From contig JAGMUV010000020.1 of NCBI GenBank assembly GCA_020744425.1, positions 248,001 through 312,000 of the forward strand: DNA of 64,000 nucleotides, written 5' to 3'. Below are positions 6,523 to 64,000 of this stretch, one piece after another. Positions within the stretch are counted from its first letter, which is position 1, and each line of letters begins with the position of its first letter. This stretch comes from Dactylonectria macrodidyma. Its lineage: Eukaryota; Ascomycota; Sordariomycetes; Hypocreales; Nectriaceae. Below the pieces are notes generated by a model that saw only the letters and a list, made by a program, of their open reading frames with translations, was not told the origin of the DNA and did no database searches. Position numbers and translations under genes: made by a program.

Positions 6523-9092
6523 TCATAGAGTGATAGTATAAGTCTGTCCGGCCCGGGTCTCAACCTCGTCTACCTCCTTCCCGTCAATCTTAAACCGCGA
6601 GCCATCCGCGACCCTCGGCTTCAAATTACTGCCTAGCCTTGACTTGACTTTGGCCTCCTCAAGCTGCCCGTCTTTCCAGGTGATCGATACGACAAAACCC
6701 CCGCGGGCGATAAGACCCGAAACAGAGCCAGACTTCACCTTGCTACTCAAGGCAGGCAAAATGTGAACGACACCCGTATGGCTCTGGACTAGAGTCTCGG
6801 CCACAGCAGCAACCAGCCCGTAGTTGCTGTCAATCTGGAATGCCTGACCCGGTTCAATGTTGTGGAAAAGATTTGTCGCAGGATGGTGTTTGAGTAGATC
6901 TTGAATGTTCTCAAAGGCCTCGTCGCCGTCGAATAATCGAGCGTAGAGTGATGCTGTCCACACACGCGACCATCCAGTGGCTGCGCCACCGGCAGCGAGT
7001 CGAAGTTCAATGCTCTTTTTGGCTGCATCTGCCAATGTTTGATTGAGGAGAGGTGACATGGCTCTCGCAGGGAAAAGATCGATGAGGTGTGAGAAATGCC
7101 GGTGTCCTGGTTCGGCCTCTGCATAGTCTCGTCGCCATTCCTGAATTTGGCCGCGAGAGCCAATCTCGGTCGGTCGCAAGCCCTCTCGGTAGGCCTCCAC
7201 CTTGGAAAGGACCGGGTCGTTGTTGAGATTCACGCCTAGAATGTCTGCGGCCTCGATGACGTTGGAGAAAAACTCGCGCAGCAGAGAGTTGTCCATGGTG
7301 ATGGAGATGTCGAAGGACTCTTTGCCACCAGCCGTTGATCCATCCTCGGGAATCACGAAGACGTTCTCGGGCGAGGTAGATGGCCCAGACATCCATTTGC
7401 CATCAAACTTGAACAGGTAACAGTCGAAAAAAGCGGCGATGTCTTTAAACAATGGCCACGCCTTTTCTTCCAGAAACGTCTTGTCCCCGGTAAATCGATA
7501 GTGCTCCATCAGATGCTGAGAAAGCCACAGGTTGCTTGATGGCCAGATACTGTAAGCTGTCCCGCTGTCGTGAGGAGCCGAGTCGCCCCAGAGGTCTAGG
7601 TTATGATGTGACACATAGCCTGGACAATTGTACATCTTTTCGGCGACCTGCGATCCTTTGTCCCGGCTGCGATACATGAGGTCCCAGAGCGGCCGAAGGG
7701 TCTCGGGGAGGTCGGTTAACTCAGCGAGCCAGTAGTTCATTTCCGTGTTGATGTTGACAGTGTACTTGCTCCCCCTATTTCAGCGGTTAATGAGATATCT
7801 CTAGGATTCTTTTCAAGGATACTTTACCAGGGAGGATTGTACATGTTGTTCCAAATGCCCTGTAGATTTGCTGGGACTCCCAACCCAGAACCACCAGCGT
7901 CTCTTGAGGCAGAGATGAGTAAATGACGGCCAAACTGGAACCCCAATGTGACGAATTCAGGGTCATCGTCTGGATTGCTCTGGTATCCGTCGATTCGCTC
8001 ATTCGTCGGTTGGGATGCGACGTCACCGCCAGATCCGAGGTCGAGCTGGACGCGCTTCATCAGGCTGCTATGGTCTGCAGCGGCTTCAGCTTTGAGGGAC
8101 TCGAACCCGCGCTTAGCTGCATCGTCTAGTTTGCTAGCCAAACCGGCTTTCCACTTCGACTCGGAATCCCACTGGAAGCTGGTTTCGACATCTAAGAAAA
8201 GATCAACGGTGGAGGCGCCTGTGATGTTCAAAGCGGACCCGTTTGCGTCAATGGTTCCTGATTTGAGTATCATGGTTAGCTGTGTTCTTAACAACAGTAT
8301 GGGCTTCGTTGCTCGGGATTCCACTTGCCCTCCTTTGAGACTACACGGACACCAGCCGTGAAAGGAATCGCGTCTGCCCCGGAGCCTCCAACGTCCATGA
8401 TGATGCTCTTTGTTCCCTCAGAGGCAGAGTTGTCGATGATACCCCGGTCACGGGTAAGGCTCACGCCAATGTCCAATGCACCGTCCTTGCTTGCCGTGAA
8501 ACGGGCTGCAATGACACCAACGGCAAAGTTGGCAATGATTTCGCGACTGTGTTCTAGTCAGTAAGGGAGCTCGGTTCGGTAACGGGCTACATTGAGTCTA
8601 GGATACTCACGTATAAGTAACGCCATCGATTTCATAGCTAACACCGGTGTTGCCCTCCAAAGTGTCTAGCCATCTCTCGTAGTTTGAGATATCATCTGCC
8701 TTGTGGCCAAAATCCAGTAGCAGGTCTCCTGTCACGCTGTACCACCTGTTCGTGGGCGGGTTGGCATACATGTCACTTGCAGCGATTTCGGCAGCTTCCG
8801 TGAATTTGTTTTCAGTCAGCAACTTGCGAGCCTTGGGGAACCCTTCAGAGGACTTGGGGTTTACACGATCCTGGAAGGGACCACTCCAGACCGAGTTCTC
8901 ATTGATGATGATTCTCTCCGAGACAGAGCCTTGGACTAGTGCCCCGAGTCTGCCGTTTCCGATTGGTAAAGCTGATTTGAAGTCGCTTCCAGGACTCTTA
9001 TACCAAAGGTGCCGTGAGCCTAGGTATGGACCTCCCTTGGCCTCTGCTGTGGCAGCAAGGGCAACGAGGACGGGCAAGAAAAACGCATGCAT
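6523..9092 (-). CDS. Secreted alpha-L-fucosidase, GH95 family
   Basis: Four exons, complement(6523..7774, 7828..8257, 8329..8546, 8611..9092), summing to 2382 nt (793 aa), the usual GH95 length. Residues 1-18 form a signal peptide (MHAFFLPVLVALAATAEA, then KG), so it acts outside the cell. Family landmarks are LWYKSPGSDFKSALPIGNG with LGALVQGSV near the start, and YTVNINTEMNYW across the third splice site. The two Asn there (about 384 and 386) match the substrate/base-assisting Asn pair known in GH95 enzymes. QEWRRDYAEAEPGHRHFSH and QIDSNYG lie in the catalytic barrel. The family hydrolyses terminal alpha-1,2-L-fucose (some members act on L-galactose) by inversion. The intron at 7775..7827 and the one at 8547..8610 are GT-AG; the intron at 8258..8328 is GC-AG. 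No breaks. Confidence 0.92.
8258..8328 (-). other. GC-AG intron in the GH95 gene
   Basis: A donor GCAAGT at 8328 and acceptor CAG at 8258, with CTAAC branch site 16 nt upstream, are the only pair I found that joins VVSKEG to TIDANGSALN in frame. The nearest GT donor (GTGGAA, 4 nt downstream) puts a stop directly after the junction. 71 bp. Confidence 0.7.
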
Positions 9093-9598
9093 TATGGATT
9101 GTTGACATGTAATGGAAATTGATGTTGGTTATTGTCTCGTCTCAGTGGGAGAGGCAACAATTATATAGGATTTAGAGTTGCTATGTTTGCGGGGGACCTC
9201 AAGTACGATGATTCCCCATATTCCCCAGATTATCTTTGACGGAACGCGGGGAGCCATCGACGATCTTTCCCCTTTCAGCGGCCATGAAGCTACTATGTAG
9301 TAACAGTGCCTTGATCAACAGGAAATCATGTGCAATTCGATGAGGGTTCGTGATCAAGACAAAGCAGGCACTTCGGTACGGTAACCGGAGGGGGTAACTC
9401 CGAGTTTGAAAAGAACCGTCGGGTCTTTATTTGAGCGTTCTATAAAGAATCTCGAGGCCAAAGCGCCGAATTATCCGTTGTTGGCTAAAAAGAACCTTAA
9501 TGCCGAGCAACAGCTTGTGATATTTCTCTCGACTCTTGACCTTAATCTTGCGCACGAATAGGATAATTTTGCCGATCGGTCATATTGCGGAGCAACTG
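9093..9598. other. intergenic, promoter side of GH95 gene
   Basis: TATATAGG lies about 65 bp upstream of the GH95 start (9160). No gene seen in the rest. Confidence 0.4.
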
Positions 9599-11975: not shown

Positions 11976-12384
11976 TTACAGGCCAATCCTAATGTGTTTC
12001 TTGTTCATATGGCTGCATACGAGCCCTCCCTGGGAGAAGGTCTTCATACAAACCCAGCAGATGTGCGCCTTACAGACACAGCACGCCATATGGTTGCAAC
12101 CAACTGACTTCTCAATCATGGTTCCGCACTTGGGACAATTCTTTATCCCGAGATTCTGCTTTGTGTTTTGTAGTAAATCGTAACCACCGGTGCCATGGTC
12201 ATGATACTCGGGGTAGGTCAGTCCTTTCGTGGGAAACATGGCAAGCTGTGCATACGGCTACCAGACAAGCTGGACTTGTGAAGAGAGCTGGACTGTCTCC
12301 AGGCTCCAGTACCTTTTCTAGGCGGTAAACCTGCTCGCAGTCGGCCGTAGGGTAGTGTCGTACCTCGCTTGGATTACCGGCCAC
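11976..12384 (-). pseudogene. RBR E3 ubiquitin ligase C-terminal fragment (IBR + RING2), frameshifted
   Basis: Two overlapping minus frames together give the end of a fungal CCCH-RRM-RBR protein: YPTADCEQVYR and FTSPACLVAVCTACH (IBR zinc site, with one Cys replaced by Ser), then YHDHGTGGYDLLQNTKQ, NCPKCGTMIEKSVGCNHM, CKAHICWVCMKTF and CSHMNKKH. RING2 and its presumed catalytic Cys (GCNHM) are present. Frames switch at the three-base run 12225-12227, where one extra base separates CHVSHE from GLTYPEY. RING1 and everything N-terminal are missing; upstream DNA turns AT-rich at 12420. Not functional as it stands. The matching CCCH start lies at 21242-21754 on the same strand. Confidence 0.75.
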
Positions 12385-12833: not shown

Positions 12834-15800
12834 ATGGCCTCGGTAAACCCATTAGAGAAGCTACGATTCAAATTCAGGACGAAAAGGGACGGCACGCATG
12901 ACGCAGTAGCGGCCTCAGTTCCTCAGCCAACAACCACTGGTTCGACAGCCGGTCGTCTCAGTCCACATCCAGCCGTTTTAAAGGCGTCTCCCGCCTTACA
13001 AGAGACTTCCGACTCGTTGTATTCCACCCAGAGCCTCCCAGAACGGCTCTGGAACCGAGCCTACGATGCACTCAAAGAGGAGGATCCTCAGTTAGTGGAT
13101 ACCTATGAGCGACTTTTATCTCATCAACTCGAGGGCGACCCCACCTCCACGGACCTGTCATCTCAAAAGAACAGTATTGAGCAAGGCAGCTCGGAGAAAA
13201 GGCGGTACCAAATGACTCAGCTCGTCGTTGCCGGCCTGGAGAAGACGGGGAGAGAAGCCAATATCAAGCGAGATGTGGAGAAGGGAATGCAGGTTGTATC
13301 ATCTGCCAAGGCGCTGATGGACACGGCAGTGAAAGCATATCCGGAAGCGAGCCTTGCGTGGGCGGGCGTTTGCATTATTATAGAGGTACACTTTGAGCCT
13401 TTAAACAAAGTCGCACCGCGCTAACTAGTGAAAGATGCTCGCAAACCCGGTAAAGCAGACAAGCGCCAACCGTGAAGGAATCGCATATGTCATCTCTAGA
13501 ATGGAATGGTATTGGCGGTTGTCGAGCCTACTCCTGGATGAAAATAAAGCCAAAGGGAACCATGGGGGACTGCGAGATGAACTAGAGAAGCACGTCATCG
13601 CTCTCTACAAAACCTTACTCGCATACCAGATGAAGAGTGTCTATTCATACTACCGGAGCCGGCACGTTGTCTTCTGGAGGGATGTGATCACACTTGACGA
13701 TTGGTCTGGTACTCTGGAGACCGTATATCATGCCGAGAAAACAGTTCAAGAGGACTCTGCTGCCTACAACACGGAGAGCATCAAAGGCCATCTCGAGAAC
13801 CTTGCTGAAGCTGCCAAGTCCCAGCAGGAGACGCTTCTCCCCGGCATCCATCAGGCCTTCCGCGACCATACAGCAGCGCAGAGGGAAATGCTACAGGAAA
13901 AAGAAACGATGGAATGTCTGAAACATTTACGTGCCACCGACCCCCGTGACGATAAGAAGCGCATCGAGCGCATCAAAGGCGGTTTTCTCACTGATGCATC
14001 AAACTGGATCCTTCACCATCCCGATTTCCGGCATTGGCGAGACGACGCCCAAAGCCAGCTGCTTTGGATAAAGGGCGACCCAGGAAAGGGGAAGACGATG
14101 CTGCTAATAGGTATCATCAAAGAACTGGAGCTCACGTCAGCACTTGCAGATAATCTTACCGCTAAACCCGCTGTGCTCTCCTACTTCTTCTGCCAACGCT
14201 CTGACTCACGGCTTAACAACGCCACGGCTGTTCTGAGGGGCCTCATATACCTCCTCGTTGTGCAGCAGCCTTTGCTTATGTCGCATCTATGGAAGAAGTA
14301 CGATCACGCTGGCGAAGGCCTCTTCAAGGATGTCAACGCGTTTGTCGCTCTGTCGGAGGTATTTGCGACCATGTTGCGCGACCCAAGCATTACGAAGGCG
14401 TACATAATCGTTGACGCTCTCGACGAGTGCGAGACGGACCAGAAGCAACTTCTCGATCTCATCGCAGAGAATGCCTCTGCATCACCTCGGGTCAAGTGGA
14501 TCGTTTCTAGTCGCAACAGGCGAGATATAGAGCGGCAACTGAAGCTCGAAGACTCAGGCATGAAGATCTGTCTCGAAATGACGCACAACGCAGCGGCATT
14601 TTATCGCCCTGGGAAGCCACATTTCAAGTCGTGGTTCGAGTACAGCAGGGGGTACTTTATACTCTCTTCCTATCTGTGGCCAGAGGGAGAGCCATGGCTC
14701 CAGCTCCTCGTGCTTCTGTCCTTCCTTCTCATCGTGGGCCAGCGGATTGTGAACATCCTTATGCCAATTCAGATTGGCATTATTGCAAATACTCTTCTCT
14801 TGAGTGACAGGATGCCGTGGGAGATGTTGGCTTGGTTAATGACCTTCAAGTTCTTGCATGGAGGCGCAGGGCTCTTAGCATCTACGCGATCCTTACTCTG
14901 GATCCCTGTGGCACAGTACTCCTATCGATCGTTGGCCACAGCAGCATTCGAGCATGCTCATTCCCTAGGTCTCGAATTCTACTTGAGTAAGAGAACTGGC
15001 GAAGTCCTGTCGACCCTCAACAAAGCTTCCTCGGTGAATCAATATCTGGAGCAGATCACCTTCCAGGTGCTCCCCATGATTTTTGACATCATCATTGCCA
15101 TTATCTACTTCTGCAGCTACTATAACGCCATTTACGGTGCAATTATCGCCATTTTTGCCTGGTCTTACCTCTACTTCCAAATTTACCTATCCCGCACCAG
15201 GGACGACGAGCGCCATGATATGAACGAGGCTGACCAAGAGGAAGAAGCAGTGAAGAATGACTCTATCACATCTTATGAGACAGTCAAGTATTTCAACGCT
15301 GAACAATACGAATTCCGGCGCTACAAAAACTCCCTACAAAATTTCCAGGATATTCAACTCAAGTGTTTTCACGGAGCCAGCACCATAAGTATCTGCCGGA
15401 CACTGGCAATGATTTCCGGGTTTCTGATCGTTACGACACTAGGAGCATACGAGGTATCGTACGGTCTGAGAGATGTCGGTTCTTTTGTTACTCTGGTCGC
15501 CTACTTCCAGCAGTTGCAATCTCCCCTTGACATCTTTGGAACCCTTTGCCGCCCCATAGGGCTTGCCATGATGTTTGCAGAGAGATTCCTGGAGCTCTTC
15601 AAGGTACAGCCAGCTGTGGTTGACAGCCCTAACGCGAAGAAACTGGACAGGTGCGAAGGCCGAATCCGATGGTCTGGCGTCAAGTTCTCCTATGATTGGC
15701 GCAAGCCCACACTGCAAGACCTAAGCTTCGAGTGTGTACCCGGAACGACCACAGCTTTTGTTGGTGAGTCAGGAGGTGGCAAGTCAACCGTGTTCCGTCT

Positions 15801-16504
15801 GCTGTACCGCTACTTCAACTTCAACGGAAGCGTTGAAATTGACGGTCACGATGTGAGGGAACTGACAATCGACTCTGTGCGGCGTCATATGGGAGTCGTG
15901 CCGCAGCACACAATCTTGTTCAACGAGACGCTCATGTACAATCTGCGCTACGCCAATCAGAATGCTACAGACGAGGAGATATTTGCCGCATGCCGCTTGG
16001 CAAACATTCATGACAGAATCATGACGTTCCCTGAAGGCTACCGAACTGAAGTTGGAGAACGTGGCCTTCGGTTGAGTGGTGGGGAGAGACAACGGGTAGC
16101 AATTGCGAGAATGCTTCTAAAGAACCCTAAGATTATGATGCTTGACGAGGCGATGTCGTCTCTGGATTCTTCGACCGAACAGGAAATCCAAAAGGGACTA
16201 AGAAGTGTGGGAAAGGGAAGAACGATGCTGATTATTGCGTGAGTGTAACGCCTTTCCGAATACGCGTCGACTTACGGAGTTGGCTGATAAGGAAAAACAC
16301 TGACCTCGGTTAAACAGCCACCGCCTCTCTACTGTAACGCATGCCGACCAAATCCTCGTTCTCCATGGAGGAAGGATCGTAGAGAAAGGTACGCATGCTG
16401 AACTGCTTGCCTTAAATGGAAGATACGCCTTGATGTGGGAAAAGCAGTGCACTGCGAATGAGGTAGTTGAGGAAAGGTTGCCCACGCCCACGTCCGCTGG
16501 TTGA
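12834..16504 (+). CDS. NACHT_N-NACHT NTPase fused in frame to an HMT1/ABCB6-type ABC half-transporter
   Basis: Exons 12834..13385, 13435..16238 and 16318..16504 sum to 3543 nt, 1180 aa, with no stop. Residues ~55-390 are the NACHT_N domain of fungal STAND proteins ([32 protein letters not shown]). The NACHT NTPase follows: Walker A GDPGKGKT (398-405) and Walker [11 protein letters not shown] (507-516). At about residue 566 the NACHT stops ([12 protein letters not shown]) and within ten residues an ABC half-transporter begins ([22 protein letters not shown]). It has six-helix TMD landmarks ([34 protein letters not shown]), A-loop FSYDW, Walker [10 protein letters not shown] (961-969), Q-loop VVPQ, signature LSGGERQR (about 1064), Walker B MMLDEA and H-loop AHRLST (1120). 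The junction lies inside one long exon. Missing are the NLR C-terminal sensor and the TMD0 usual in HMT1. Location and cargo unknown; HMT1 relatives are vacuolar. Confidence 0.9.
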
Positions 16505-50263: not shown

Positions 50264-52200
50264 TTTTCCATTCCTTTCCATATGACCAGGGTATCCCAGT
50301 AACCTATTCTCGCTCTTTGGCCTCTCCTAGCCGACCCGATCCCTTCGACTTTCGTAGCCTGCTGCCTCCAGCGGCAAAAGACCGCATCCTGCCTCCTGGG
50401 TCGTTTTGCATGAAGGTACCACTCCCAGCACCAAAATATAAACAGAAAGCAGAGTGTTTTGATGAAGGACTGCCGTCTGTCTGAAGACTTTGTGCCACCA
50501 ATGAAGGAAATCGAAGTAACCCAGTATAAAGGAGGAAAAAAATAATTATTGTAATAAGGGAAATGATAGAGGGACGACTGTTTGTAGAACAATCATAACC
50601 ATGAGTAGCTAGTAGTCGGTGCACGTTTGGTTTTGTCTCCTAGATGACACAGTATTATGTGCATCTTGGGTAAAGCTTCATTGACCTACAGCCCTCTTCC
50701 CCAAATCAATACCACTCTCCAATCGATTGGGAGCAATCAACCAAACTACAATTTGCCCATCGGGTTTTAGCGCATGTGTCACACATCCACCACAAAGCTG
50801 TTCTCATATATGTGGGGTAGTTTCCAGCGAATACCGAAACTCTGAGCCGTCCAGTGACTAGTTAATGAGCTCACACCATGGGTGCAAAGCATGATGATTC
50901 AAATGATAACAGAAGTGCTATCATGTAAGTTTGTGTATTACCGGTTGGATATTGTAGGGCTCTCCTCACCGGTAGAGACATAGCCACTTCTAGTCTTCAT
51001 GAACGAGCTTAGGCGGCTCTGTTGCACGGGTGCTCTAGGTATGAGCTCATCTGCGTCCACCCTCAGAGGGGTCCTGTAAAGGGTGGTCACTGCAGTCGCC
51101 TCAAAATGACACGTCTCACAGCCCAAATACTACGTGAGCGGAGGCTAGGAATGGCCTGAGACATACATGGGAAGCCTCCAGTATGGCTTCACCGTCTTTT
51201 TATGAATACCCGACTCCATGGTCCTGGCATGTCAGTCCGACACGCACCACGATGATACCGCTGTGTCAGCGCTGTCCCAAATCTCTGTCATCTATGATAA
51301 AACCGGTCTTGGGCTTTCGTGCCCGATCACTCGAGGCTTACTACTACGGCCCAGAGGGGGCCTCAATGCCAAAATTTAGTCCGAGAGCCTCATTGCCTCG
51401 TGACCTTGTTGTGAATTTGCCTCCTGGTCTTTCCCAAGCCACTGGTACAGCCTGATGAGGCTCAGTCACTTAGGAAAGCAGCACACAATGACTCGAAATG
51501 CTTTGGCTTAGACCATCTCACTCTACTCAGCGTAGCTGCCCATGCCAACTGCTTTACTCTCCCTGCAGGCCGCAGCCCGGTTTGAAATGGACACCCAACG
51601 GGGCATCTGCAGGCGGTAGGCCTCGAATCATTTCCTACACTAGGATAGCCTCTGTAAGGAGGCGAAACCGCCAATGCAGCCGTGTGTCGCACAATAAGGC
51701 GACGGTCACTCAGATCGACGAAATCTGCCCAGTGACCTGCCGAGGCAGACTGCCAACGAGGCAGACTGGGTCGCCGAGAGCCCAACAAGACACGAGGCAA
51801 CCTGGCGTAAAAAAATTCCAACACTGACCAATGATATATAAATCTCTCACACACCCTTTTGCACACGCGTCATTATCTGATGGGTAGCCGCTCGGTGGCT
51901 CATCTAGTGGCTCGTGGCAGGGTACAAACTGTCCAAAAGGGGCGGCTTCTGTCCACACCCAGCAGATCAGGCTACCAATTACATTGCAAAGAACAAAGAC
52001 CGGTCTGCGGTTTGGCAATCACGCTGTTCGTGTCGAATGATCGTCCCGGTGACGTGCATTATTAGCTCTAATCTCATCATGCAGTGAGCCGTAGCAGGGA
52101 GTGCGATTTGTGTCACGAGAACAGCCATTGTGTGACAATGAATGGATCAAAGGGTGTATTAATTGAAGATGAATGCAGATATCTACCATTCACATCCCAA

Positions 52201-53536: not shown

Positions 53537-55300
53537 ATGTCGGCGTCCGACAGCAGCAGGTCGACGCCCGAGCAGGTAATTCGAAGGGCAGATACCAATG
53601 CCATCCGAACTAAAGCCAAGAAAAACCCATGGGCGCCCATTGTTCTATCTTTAGGTGAGACCAGAGTTCAGCTTAACGCGTACAATATGAAGTCTAATCT
53701 GTTCAATAGATGGTGGCGGCATTAAGGGCCTCTCTGAGCTTTTTCTAATGCTCAAGATAATGGATCGAATCGAGGAGCTGATTATGGAAGGGATAAGCGA
53801 AGAAAGTAACATCAAAGATGATAAGCTATTCGCATTCACAAAAGATCCCATACTTTTACCTTGTTACTTTTTTGACTTCATGGTCGGAACAAGTACCGGA
53901 GGGTAATTCATCCCTTCACGTTGGCCCACACATCCATCCACCTCGCCGGCTAACTTAATATCAAGTCTCATTGCCGTGATGTTAGGTCGGCTTAGGATGA
54001 GCGTCCGTGATGCCATCAAGGCGTACTGGTGCCTGGGAAACGACATATTCTTATCCCACCGCGTGGCACGGCCGTACAGCTCGACGAAATTGAAGGATGC
54101 AATCATCCGCGTCATAACCGACCACTGCGGCTGCCATGAGCCTGGACAAGACTGCCATGATACGGAGCCCCTTAGGCAGTATGACTACGCTGAGGAAAAC
54201 GACATTAGTTATAACAAGACTCCGCATCGACAGAACTTCACATGCAAGGTGTGAGTAGATTACTTCTCTGCGATTACCACGAAAATGCCAGTCAACTAAT
54301 ACTAGAAACCAGAGCCCTCGTCGCACAGCGTAAGAAGAAGGGATCCCAAGTCCCGTACCTCTTTCGTAGCTACAACCACAGTCGCCGCTCCGAGGGAGAT
54401 CTTCTAGAGCACAACCCCATGACTTTAGGAGGCAAGGCTCTTCACATGTGGAAGGCTTGCCGTGCCACCTCTGCGGCCCCTTTTTACTTCAAAAGCATGG
54501 CCATTGGTCGAGACGACTTCCTCGATGGCGGCGCTGGCAATAATAACCCTAGCAATATTGCCTGGAACGAAGCCAGGTGGATGTCCAAGCCTGTCCATCC
54601 GCAGCCAAATGCGACCTCTGGCAATGGGACAGTAGCGGCAGTGATCAGCCTTGGCTGTGGGGAGAAGGAAAAGCACCACCTTTTTGGTAATCAAACGAGT
54701 ATATTCTATCTCTTCCAAGCCATGAGGTATGGAAAAAGTCGGATCAGCGATACAGAATCTGCTCACAACGAGACACATCGCCTCGCTGGAGCAAGCGATT
54801 CAGACTACTTCAGATTCTCAGTTAAGCCGACGGACGGCGACCGAGGGAATAAGGGACTCGCAGATGTTAAGCTTAGCGATTGCGTCCGAGAGTCAAAAAG
54901 ACGCCTATGGGGGTACGGGCCACTCAAAGAAGCAAGGCAGCCCGTGGGGGGGACCGAGTTACCACTCCCAGACTGGTACACGGCTTTGCAGACGGAAGCA
55001 ACGCCACAGGGAGAAAGACGGAAGAAAGGCGGTTTCAAGCCAGAAAAGTTCTGGTATACCACCTTTGATACCATCTTCCATCGAACGGAGGAGTACTGCA
55101 AACTTCACAACGACGGCGGCGAGGATGTGAGGGGAGATATTGATAGATGCGCCAAAACACTCCTGAGTTATGCTCGGGCGCGCCAGGCAGACGACCCTGA
55201 GAGGTGGAAATGCCATGTCAGTCATCCAGATCCAGCTCACGATTTCTTTTTGGAGTCGACTAGGAGGCCTAGACCCAGGCAAGAAGAGAACGGAGGGTGA
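53537..55300 (+). CDS. Patatin-like phospholipase
   Basis: Four exons, 53537..53654, 53710..53902, 53966..54250 and 54313..55300, 1584 nt, 527 aa. The oxyanion loop DGGGIKG starts at residue 40. The nucleophile is Ser101 in GTSTG. The dyad Asp is in LDGGAGNNNP (near residue 269). The central segment includes YLFRSYNH and KACRATSAAPFYF, standard for the fungal patatin group that hydrolyses acyl ester bonds of phospholipids. The third intron ends at AAACCAG (54312), giving K-V-ALVAQRKK in frame; the nearer CTAG would break the frame. No NB-ARC/NACHT or repeat domain follows, so this is a stand-alone patatin, unlike NLR-linked ones. Catalytic residues complete; probably active in the cytosol or on membranes. 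Confidence 0.9.
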
Positions 55301-63081: not shown

Positions 63082-64000
63082 CTAGGAATTCCTGCAGAGG
63101 CGGGCCATCTTAGCAGATCATACTGTGGCTTTCTGGTCATCCAGTCACTTAAATCTAGATCTGTTAGACAGCCCGAACTGTGGATGTATTTTGCCTCAGA
63201 CAATCTGGTCGAATTGCACCGTCATGTCAATTACCCATAACATGGAGGCTAGGGTAAGGCCCTCCACCATCCATCATCTACTATTTTACCGAGGTGCCTA
63301 TCTGCAATAATAAGCAGTCACAACTGATGTGGTTAAGTGGATTTCCAACGGTAAAGTGATTGTATTGAAAGAGGGTCGCGACTGTGTTTTTTTTACTTCG
63401 TGGCAGCAGCAACTCGCGCTTGATGGAACGCACAGCCTCTTACGCTAGTCAACGACCACTAGAAAGAAGGTCACGTCGTCAAACTCGACTCACCCGGGAA
63501 CTTGTTGCGAGACAAAGTCTCGCTCTTTTCTCAGCTCGTGTCCGAAGGAAGACTTGATTTGCAAGGGGGCGTTCTCGTGACACATTTCAGAGACCTGTCT
63601 ACAATTAGGTTGCAATCCTTCCCATCAGATACGCCTGCAGGATGACTGCATGATGAGATTACAGCTAATGTGAGTTACTGGGGTGATTATTAGACGCGAG
63701 CAGTAAGATAGGCAACCCGCTGACCGGTATTTCTTCTCTAAGATATAATTGGTAGCCTGATCCGCGAGGTGTGGCCAGAAATCCCGCCACGCGCCACCAG
63801 AAAAGCCACCCAGTAGTTACCCATCAGATAATGGCGCATGTGTAATGATGTGTGTGTGAGTGAATTATCATTAGTCAGTGTTCGATTGCCCCAGTGCGCA
63901 TGGTTCCTCTTGTTGAGCTCTCAGTGAGCCCTGCCAGTTGACCTTGTAGGCTTGTTATTCGTCTGCCTTGGTAGGTCACTTAGCAGGTTTTATAGATGCG
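63082..64000. other. intergenic to window end
   Basis: Short frames only. Contains copy B of the dispersed 52-bp repeat (63383-63434). Confidence 0.4.
63383..63434 (+). repeat. Dispersed 52-bp repeat, copy B
   Basis: Matches 11871-11923 in the same orientation, with about eight differences and one short gap in the T-run. Confidence 0.55.

Follow-up and report, generated by a model that had tools for sequence, protein, structure and literature searches.

The analysed stretch of DNA (the window; 64,000 nucleotides of the forward strand of contig JAGMUV010000020.1 of Dactylonectria macrodidyma) contains at positions 12834-16504 of the plus strand a gene of three exons, comprising 1180 codons and a stop codon and specifying a protein of 1180 amino acids. 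The exons are joined by GT-AG introns, and the reading frame continues from an N-terminal NACHT half into a C-terminal ABC transporter half, in agreement with the gene model of the sequence-only reading. Exon 2 is contained in a stop-free run of 936 codons that spans both halves, with no stop codon across the junction at about 14590. The start MASVNP is common to exon 1 and a relative from Neonectria punicea. Of the 11 best NACHT matches in the genome other than the gene itself, nine start at residue 2 of exon 2. Since intron 1 is shared with NACHT paralogs and intron 2 with locus L010, the closest HMT1 of this genome, both introns look inherited, and the gene structure appears to be that of two parents, with one intron contributed from each side. 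Eight neighbouring ORFs span a range of third-codon GC content that includes the value of the gene, and the RIP indices of the gene equal those of the window. An Rfam search of the window yielded zero matches at the gathering score. The coordinates of the gene features are compiled in Table 1.

Table 1. Features of the NACHT-ABC gene, in window positions.
Feature	Position	Strand	Remarks
Exon 1	12834..13385	+	Residues 1-184; N-terminus and first part of NACHT_N
NACHT_N (PF17100)	13041..13755	+	Residues 70-291, intron 1 within; Pfam E 5.1e-78
Intron 1	13386..13434	+	49 bp, GT..AG; acceptor position as in 9/11 best non-self genome NACHT matches
Exon 2	13435..16238	+	Remaining NACHT_N, NACHT P-loop domain, junction, ABC membrane domain, most of ABC ATPase domain
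NACHT/NPHP3_N P-loop domain	14002..14514	+	Residues 374-544; Pfam, motifs and structure model
NACHT Walker A	14074-14097	+	
NACHT Walker B	14401-14430	+	
NACHT sensor 1	14491-14514	+	
Fusion junction	14587..14601	+	NACHT and HMT1 alignments; also in P0001; low-confidence linker residues 567-579
ABC_membrane	14710..15528	+	Residues 610-882; six membrane helices of HMT1/ABCB6-type half-transporter; full Pfam profile, 2.5e-31
ABC_tran	15712..16155	+	Residues 944-1091; Pfam 1e-29
ABC Walker A	15763-15789	+	
ABC Q-loop	15892-15912	+	
ABC signature	16072-16092	+	
ABC Walker B	16129-16152	+	
ABC D-loop	16156-16167	+	Just 3' of Walker B
Intron 2	16239..16317	+	79 bp, GT-AG; place and phase as in L010
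Exon 3	16318..16504	+	H-loop histidine, C-terminus, stop codon

Further elements were observed in the window. An ORF with an IBR domain (fragment or exon of an RBR-type E3 ligase; 11976-12257, minus strand) lies about 0.6 kb upstream of the fusion gene on the opposite strand, and a glycoside hydrolase family 95 gene extends over three ORFs, probably exons, at 6526-9128 of the minus strand. An ORF at 54215-55297 (plus strand) carries the end of a patatin phospholipase domain, just above the Pfam cut-off; some fungal NLRs are known to begin with a patatin domain. Two diverged inverted repeats of 115 and 78 nt (51844-52061 and 63666-63860; 75-78% complementary, about 11.6 kb apart) could be the bounds of an old mobile element.

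The NACHT half includes NACHT_N and a P-loop domain detected as NPHP3_N (residues 374-544; 1e-36) and as NACHT (residues 393-556; 6e-11), so that the predicted NACHT_N and NACHT Walker A and B were recovered by Pfam and motif inspection, together with sensor 1. In NACHT relatives, the P-loop core is followed by a helical third and then often by repeats. Here, the Pfam NACHT match stops at position 143 of the 167 profile positions and the sequence runs directly into the ABC part: the helical third (HETHS/winged helix) is absent, and the P-loop core gives way to the ABC part at residues 570-572. Pfam detected zero superstructure-forming C-terminal repeats in the protein, and the C-terminal parts of three NACHT relatives used as queries found no match in the window at E 1 except for the junction itself. 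The protein thus has the NACHT_N domain, the P-loop core and, as in most close paralogs, the first intron of fungal NACHT-type NLR/STAND proteins (NWD-like proteins and HET-E relatives), but it has neither the helical third of that class nor its WD40, ankyrin or TPR repeats and continues as an ABC core instead.

Among the matches listed, the NACHT part is at most 65% identical to proteins of Xylaria and Monosporascus, and a PDB sequence search with this part gave no match. In a quick tree of 48 rows, calculated without L002, the NACHT half and two related sequences, P0001 and P0002 (see below), formed a fully supported group with proteins of Monosporascus, Fusarium oxysporum and Xylariales as neighbours; only one of the 13 NACHT rows from the same genome (L030) fell into this wider group. 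In the large family of NACHT paralogs, L026 and L027 (G000:C1 and C76) contain six and 12 stop codons within the match and are probably dead copies. The NACHT Walker A motif reads GDPGKGKT in the window copy (residue 399) and GAPGKGKT in P0001 (residue 215), the differing position being conserved among NACHT relatives.

The ABC half comprises a six-helix membrane domain and an ATPase domain in which Walker A, Q-loop, signature, Walker B, D-loop and H-loop are all present; the claim of a half-transporter with every nucleotide-binding motif was therefore borne out. The statement that the gene carries no lesion holds for the reading frame and the ATPase motifs, but not for the substrate pocket of the transporter (see below). 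The best six hits of a PDB sequence search with this half were human ABCB6, and identity to fungal HMT1 proteins is about 60% among the matches listed. The N-terminal TMD0 is missing and, according to Pfam, NACHT_N-NACHT stands in its position; the TMD0 regions of L010 and of Zalerion HMT1 used as queries found nothing convincing in the rest of the window (best E 0.49). With HMT1/ABCB6 half-transporters, the vacuolar/lysosomal exporters of metal-thiol compounds and porphyrins, the protein thus shares the whole membrane and ATPase core and, with L010, the last intron, but it differs from them in the lack of TMD0, in a membrane domain that is far from the family consensus and, in the window copy, in altered substrate contacts. 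The TMD0 of ABCB6 was reported to carry lysosomal targeting, whereas core-ABCB6 without TMD0 retained folding, dimerisation and ATP hydrolysis (PMC4410673).

An AlphaFold2 model of the exon 2 product (mean pLDDT 71.8) was used for topology and the linker only. It shows a complete P-loop core of five strands (pLDDT 74-93 in blocks of ten within model residues 201-360), six long membrane helices (pLDDT mostly 60-95, with dips below 50) and a junction linker of low confidence, the ABC ATPase domain and most of NACHT_N being poorly modelled. The eleven best PDB matches in a Foldseek search were all human ABCB6, with strong E-values and low TM-scores (about 0.3 by query length and about 0.5 by target length).

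Alignment of the junction with two NACHT relatives (LTQNA(E/Q)Q) and three HMT1 relatives ((A/T)AFYRP) placed the breakpoint inside alanine codons at 14590-14598. The NACHT part is cut just past the P-loop core and the ABC part starts just past the position of TMD0 in HMT1; about 570 codons of NACHT_N-NACHT occupy the place of TMD0, and the ABC core that of the helical third and repeats. Two further sequences contain this combination. P0001, located on a contig of 4404 bases, probably represents genomic DNA, because its ends coincide with the two introns; it carries the exon 2 reading frame with an ungapped alignment of 935 amino acids, 867 of them identical, and with the same junction. P0002 (N. 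punicea QQX98_000060) contains NACHT_N-NACHT plus ABC sequence at 90% identity, but the gene model deposited for it omits the junction along with most of the membrane domain and departs from the ABC ATPase domain at the signature. P0002 may thus be a damaged (dead) gene or a bad gene model; the extra tail of this model, transporter-like by eye, has no convincing counterpart in the window (best E 2).

The search for the same architecture in other proteins, proposed by the sequence-only reading, was performed with three protein queries against about 8,000 candidates each (649-2065 residues), and the best 120 of 3290, 7370 and 3865 matches were retained. With profiles for each half, both halves were detected in two of the 301 listed proteins, namely P0001 and P0002, a set that fusions of lower rank or of shorter or longer length could escape. 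Since the second sequence has the same junction, the fusion was inherited and is no product of assembly, and an assembly artefact was rejected on the basis of the identical junction in P0001. We regard it as scarcely credible that the locus consists of two separate genes or reflects a fault of assembly or annotation: among the 301 listed proteins, none from this genome carries both halves, and the deposited annotation may differ, but the frame is continuous, the P0001 junction is identical and one N. punicea model has both halves. Near-identical copies of the fusion or its parts were absent from elsewhere in the genome, where the best-scoring DNA match was 70% over about 620 bases and short pieces reached at most 79%. 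Accordingly, the gene is a real chimera that joins NACHT_N-NACHT in frame to an HMT1/ABCB6-type ABC core, with two ATPase modules as originally proposed.

With respect to the origin of the ABC half, L010 is the sole close HMT1 in the genome (57% identity over 550 residues), all other matches of more than 300 residues being at most 39% identical. L010 is an ordinary HMT1 with hydrophobic segments preceding the core, as expected for TMD0. In the tree, the ABC half grouped with Zalerion HMT1, P0236 and P0241 (support 100/98), apart from L010. Holding the fusion together with L010 gave an AU p of 0.031, and placing it within the wider group of L010 a p of 0.015. L011 and L012 (badly translated rows) and several others were left out of the tree; a tree including L011 and L012 placed the fusion identically. 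The fusion stem is very long (1.0 change per site versus a median of 0.22 for end branches) and may attract, so that the placement carries a long-branch caution. The tree tests indicate that L010, or its wider group, is disfavoured as the origin of the ABC half. Recent duplication of the genome's own HMT1 was rejected, as the protein identity is 57% and the DNA matches of the ABC part to the L010 locus are 64-66%.

The comparison of the window copy with P0001 revealed an uneven distribution of amino acid differences. On the NACHT side, they amount to 0/107 in the exon 2 part of NACHT_N, 4/82 in the following linker and 13/198 in the P-loop domain, at the junction to 3/38, and on the ABC side to 32/273 in the membrane domain, 9/48 in the link and 7/189 in the ABC ATPase domain. 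The ATPase domain seems still protected, because it contains fewer differences than the membrane domain and link (41/321; Fisher p 0.0005). The ratio of membrane to ATPase differences is 3.45 for the fusion, compared with a median of 1.32 in 230 control pairs (5-95%, 0.54-2.69). All constraint comparisons were made on amino acids.

The column-entropy ratio at the ABC-half differences is 1.22 for the fusion pair versus 2.27-3.01 in 231 HMT1 control pairs of similar identity, and the share of differences in the conserved half of HMT1 columns is 0.37 versus at most 0.11 in any of these control pairs, which overlap one another and belong to the family defining the conserved columns and are thereby favoured over an outside pair. 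Departures from consensus at conserved columns number 62/313 in the window copy, 48/287 in P0001 and 20/313 in L010. This amino acid comparison shows that the ABC half, chiefly its membrane domain, has apparently little HMT1-family constraint left, which tells against a conserved HMT1 function. A permutation test for a tilt of the differences to variable columns gave p 0.08 (ABC) and p 0.11 (NACHT), values that are weak alone. Sites unique to the window copy were found at 20/257 positions of the ABC part and at 4/336 of the NACHT part, whereas P0001 has five in the ABC and six in the NACHT part and P0002 has 17 and 20; the changes of the window copy are concentrated in the ABC part (window-unique versus P0001-unique sites by half, Fisher p 0.04). 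Across the 935 aligned codons with 68 amino acid changes, 0 stops and 0 gaps were found, compared with a neutral expectation of 3.8 stops (P(0) 0.023, estimated from stops only). We read these patterns as suggesting that the ABC half has remained an ATPase but has undergone changes in its transport path, the rival reading being that of a drifting half.

The glutathione site was examined by means of human ABCB6, in which R435, R439, N498, Q501, N545, T549 and R552 contact glutathione and W546 caps the site (PMC11143254, PMC10514269). The equivalent residues of the window copy are R, R, S, R, D, T and R, with I at the cap position; four of the seven contacts (R773, R777, T887 and R890) are retained, compared with six of seven in P0001. 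Among 117 HMT1 relatives, N498 is conserved at its equivalent position in 116, Q501 in all 117 and N545 in 116. The cap residue is F in 105 of these relatives, Y in seven and I in five, while the R435 column is R in just 80. At the four sites changed in the window copy, both P0001 and P0002 have S, Q, N and F. Accordingly, the change at N498 is common to all three fusion sequences, and those at Q501, N545 and the cap occur in the window copy alone. The altered contacts argue against an HMT1-type exporter in this fungus.

The sequence-only reading proposed that a STAND switch gates or relocates a vacuolar-type exporter. A canonical STAND switch is unlikely because the regulatory helical part is missing, and with the sensing repeats gone as well it cannot work as drawn. 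The vacuolar-type exporter likewise failed to find support, since TMD0 is gone and three of the seven glutathione/metal contacts and the cap are changed in the window copy. Relocation of the NACHT part to the membrane by the ABC half is the component that is compatible with the data. In our estimate, the chances are about even that the ABC dimer now acts at the membrane as a platform or sensor for the MLKL-related NACHT_N, the protein being a membrane-anchored signalling or bait receptor and not a metal exporter. The single frame, the introns of both parents, the ATPase motifs, P0001 and P0002, the spared ATPase domain, the relaxed HMT1 constraint, the changed contacts and the presence of L010 as an ordinary HMT1 elsewhere in the genome speak for this platform, while the possibly dead P0002 copy and a weak family constraint on the ABC half that also fits decay speak against it.

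As ABC half-transporters form dimers, and core-ABCB6 does so without TMD0, with folding and ATP hydrolysis preserved, we infer that the protein would be a homodimer in the membrane. Such a dimer would hold two NACHT_N bundles (HeLo/MLKL-related) side by side at the membrane. Without the STAND lever, the assembly state would most likely be set by the ATPase dimer cycle of the ABC half together with a binder of the altered membrane domain, and the spacing of the NACHT_N bundles would follow the ABC cycle. For both the dimerisation and the role of NACHT_N as an effector, the model argues by analogy with relatives: NACHT_N is one of the Goodbye-like profiles that overlap the MLKL/HeLo bundle, and a role of Goodbye-like domains in cell death was stated as not established (PMC9815663).

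The main rival to the platform reading is a slowly decaying chimera, that is, a fusion of no or fading use that arose once in these fungi and whose ABC half is drifting, most of all in the window copy. We consider this possible but somewhat unlikely. It would account for the excess of differences in conserved HMT1 columns, for the threefold count of consensus departures relative to L010, for the concentration of window-unique changes in the ABC part and for the broken N. punicea model, but it fits poorly with the lack of stops and gaps, with the sparing of the ATPase domain relative to the membrane domain and with a third-codon GC content and RIP indices like those of the surroundings.

Two further explanations relate the protein to HMT1-type transport. 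A working HMT1-type metal/glutathione exporter that is regulated or relocated by the NACHT part appears very doubtful: although the ABC core and the ATPase motifs are complete, P0001 retains most contacts and core-ABCB6 was reported to give insect cells cadmium resistance (PMC11143254), the window copy is altered at the N498, Q501 and N545 equivalents and the cap, and both TMD0 and the STAND helical third are missing. It is slightly less probable still that the protein acts as a poison subunit, a half-transporter without TMD0 that pairs with the ordinary HMT1 and lowers or redirects its activity. Such a partner is present in the genome in the form of L010, and HMT-1 of C. elegans without its N-terminal membrane domain was reported to inactivate and mistarget full-length HMT-1 (PMC6077975), but with only 57% identity between the ABC half and L010 and their position in different HMT1 groups, pairing is doubtful.

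Domain swapping at the N-terminus and C-terminal repeats are characteristic of fungal NLRs. A NACHT-ABC protein was not reported in the titles and abstract beginnings searched, and transporter terms in the covered portions of PMC4986451, PMC9815663 and PMC12258605 revealed no such protein; the last study excluded one ABC-transporter orthogroup from the NLR candidates, which could have filtered proteins of this type. The same study described 185 non-canonical domains in NLRs of Sordariales (PMC12258605). Accordingly, fungal NLRs with extra domains are already known, and the combination of NACHT and ABC is new among the literature searched. NLRs with integrated domains, such as the fungal PKinase cases of Sordariales (PMC12258605) and the plant NLR-ID proteins, likewise result from the fusion of an unrelated host protein family to an NLR, and a single origin is plausible. 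When the fusion was considered as an integrated domain (decoy), its ABC core was found to be HMT1-derived and its frame kept open, and grouping with the genome's own HMT1 gave the AU p of 0.031 mentioned above. The PKinase cases of Sordariales keep a complete tripartite NLR (PMC12258605), whereas here the fused membrane-protein module replaces the regulatory and sensing parts.

Extending the platform reading, one may speculate, with little expectation of being right, that the protein is an NLR-like receptor in which binding of a substrate or toxin and ATP-driven closure of the ABC part unite the two NACHT_N bundles at the membrane and trigger a response; the old transport pocket would then be a sensing or bait site, and the ABC exporter dimer would replace the STAND switch. 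The retention of a fusion between an NLR module and a membrane pump in more than one sequence would mean that another ATP-driven dimer can take the place of the STAND lever, and the protein would offer a compact natural experiment on whether induced proximity at the membrane suffices for a NACHT_N effector to operate. If the chimera is instead decaying, it would represent a well-bounded case of fusion birth, in which the introns of the two parents are preserved and the breakpoint can be placed to within a few codons.
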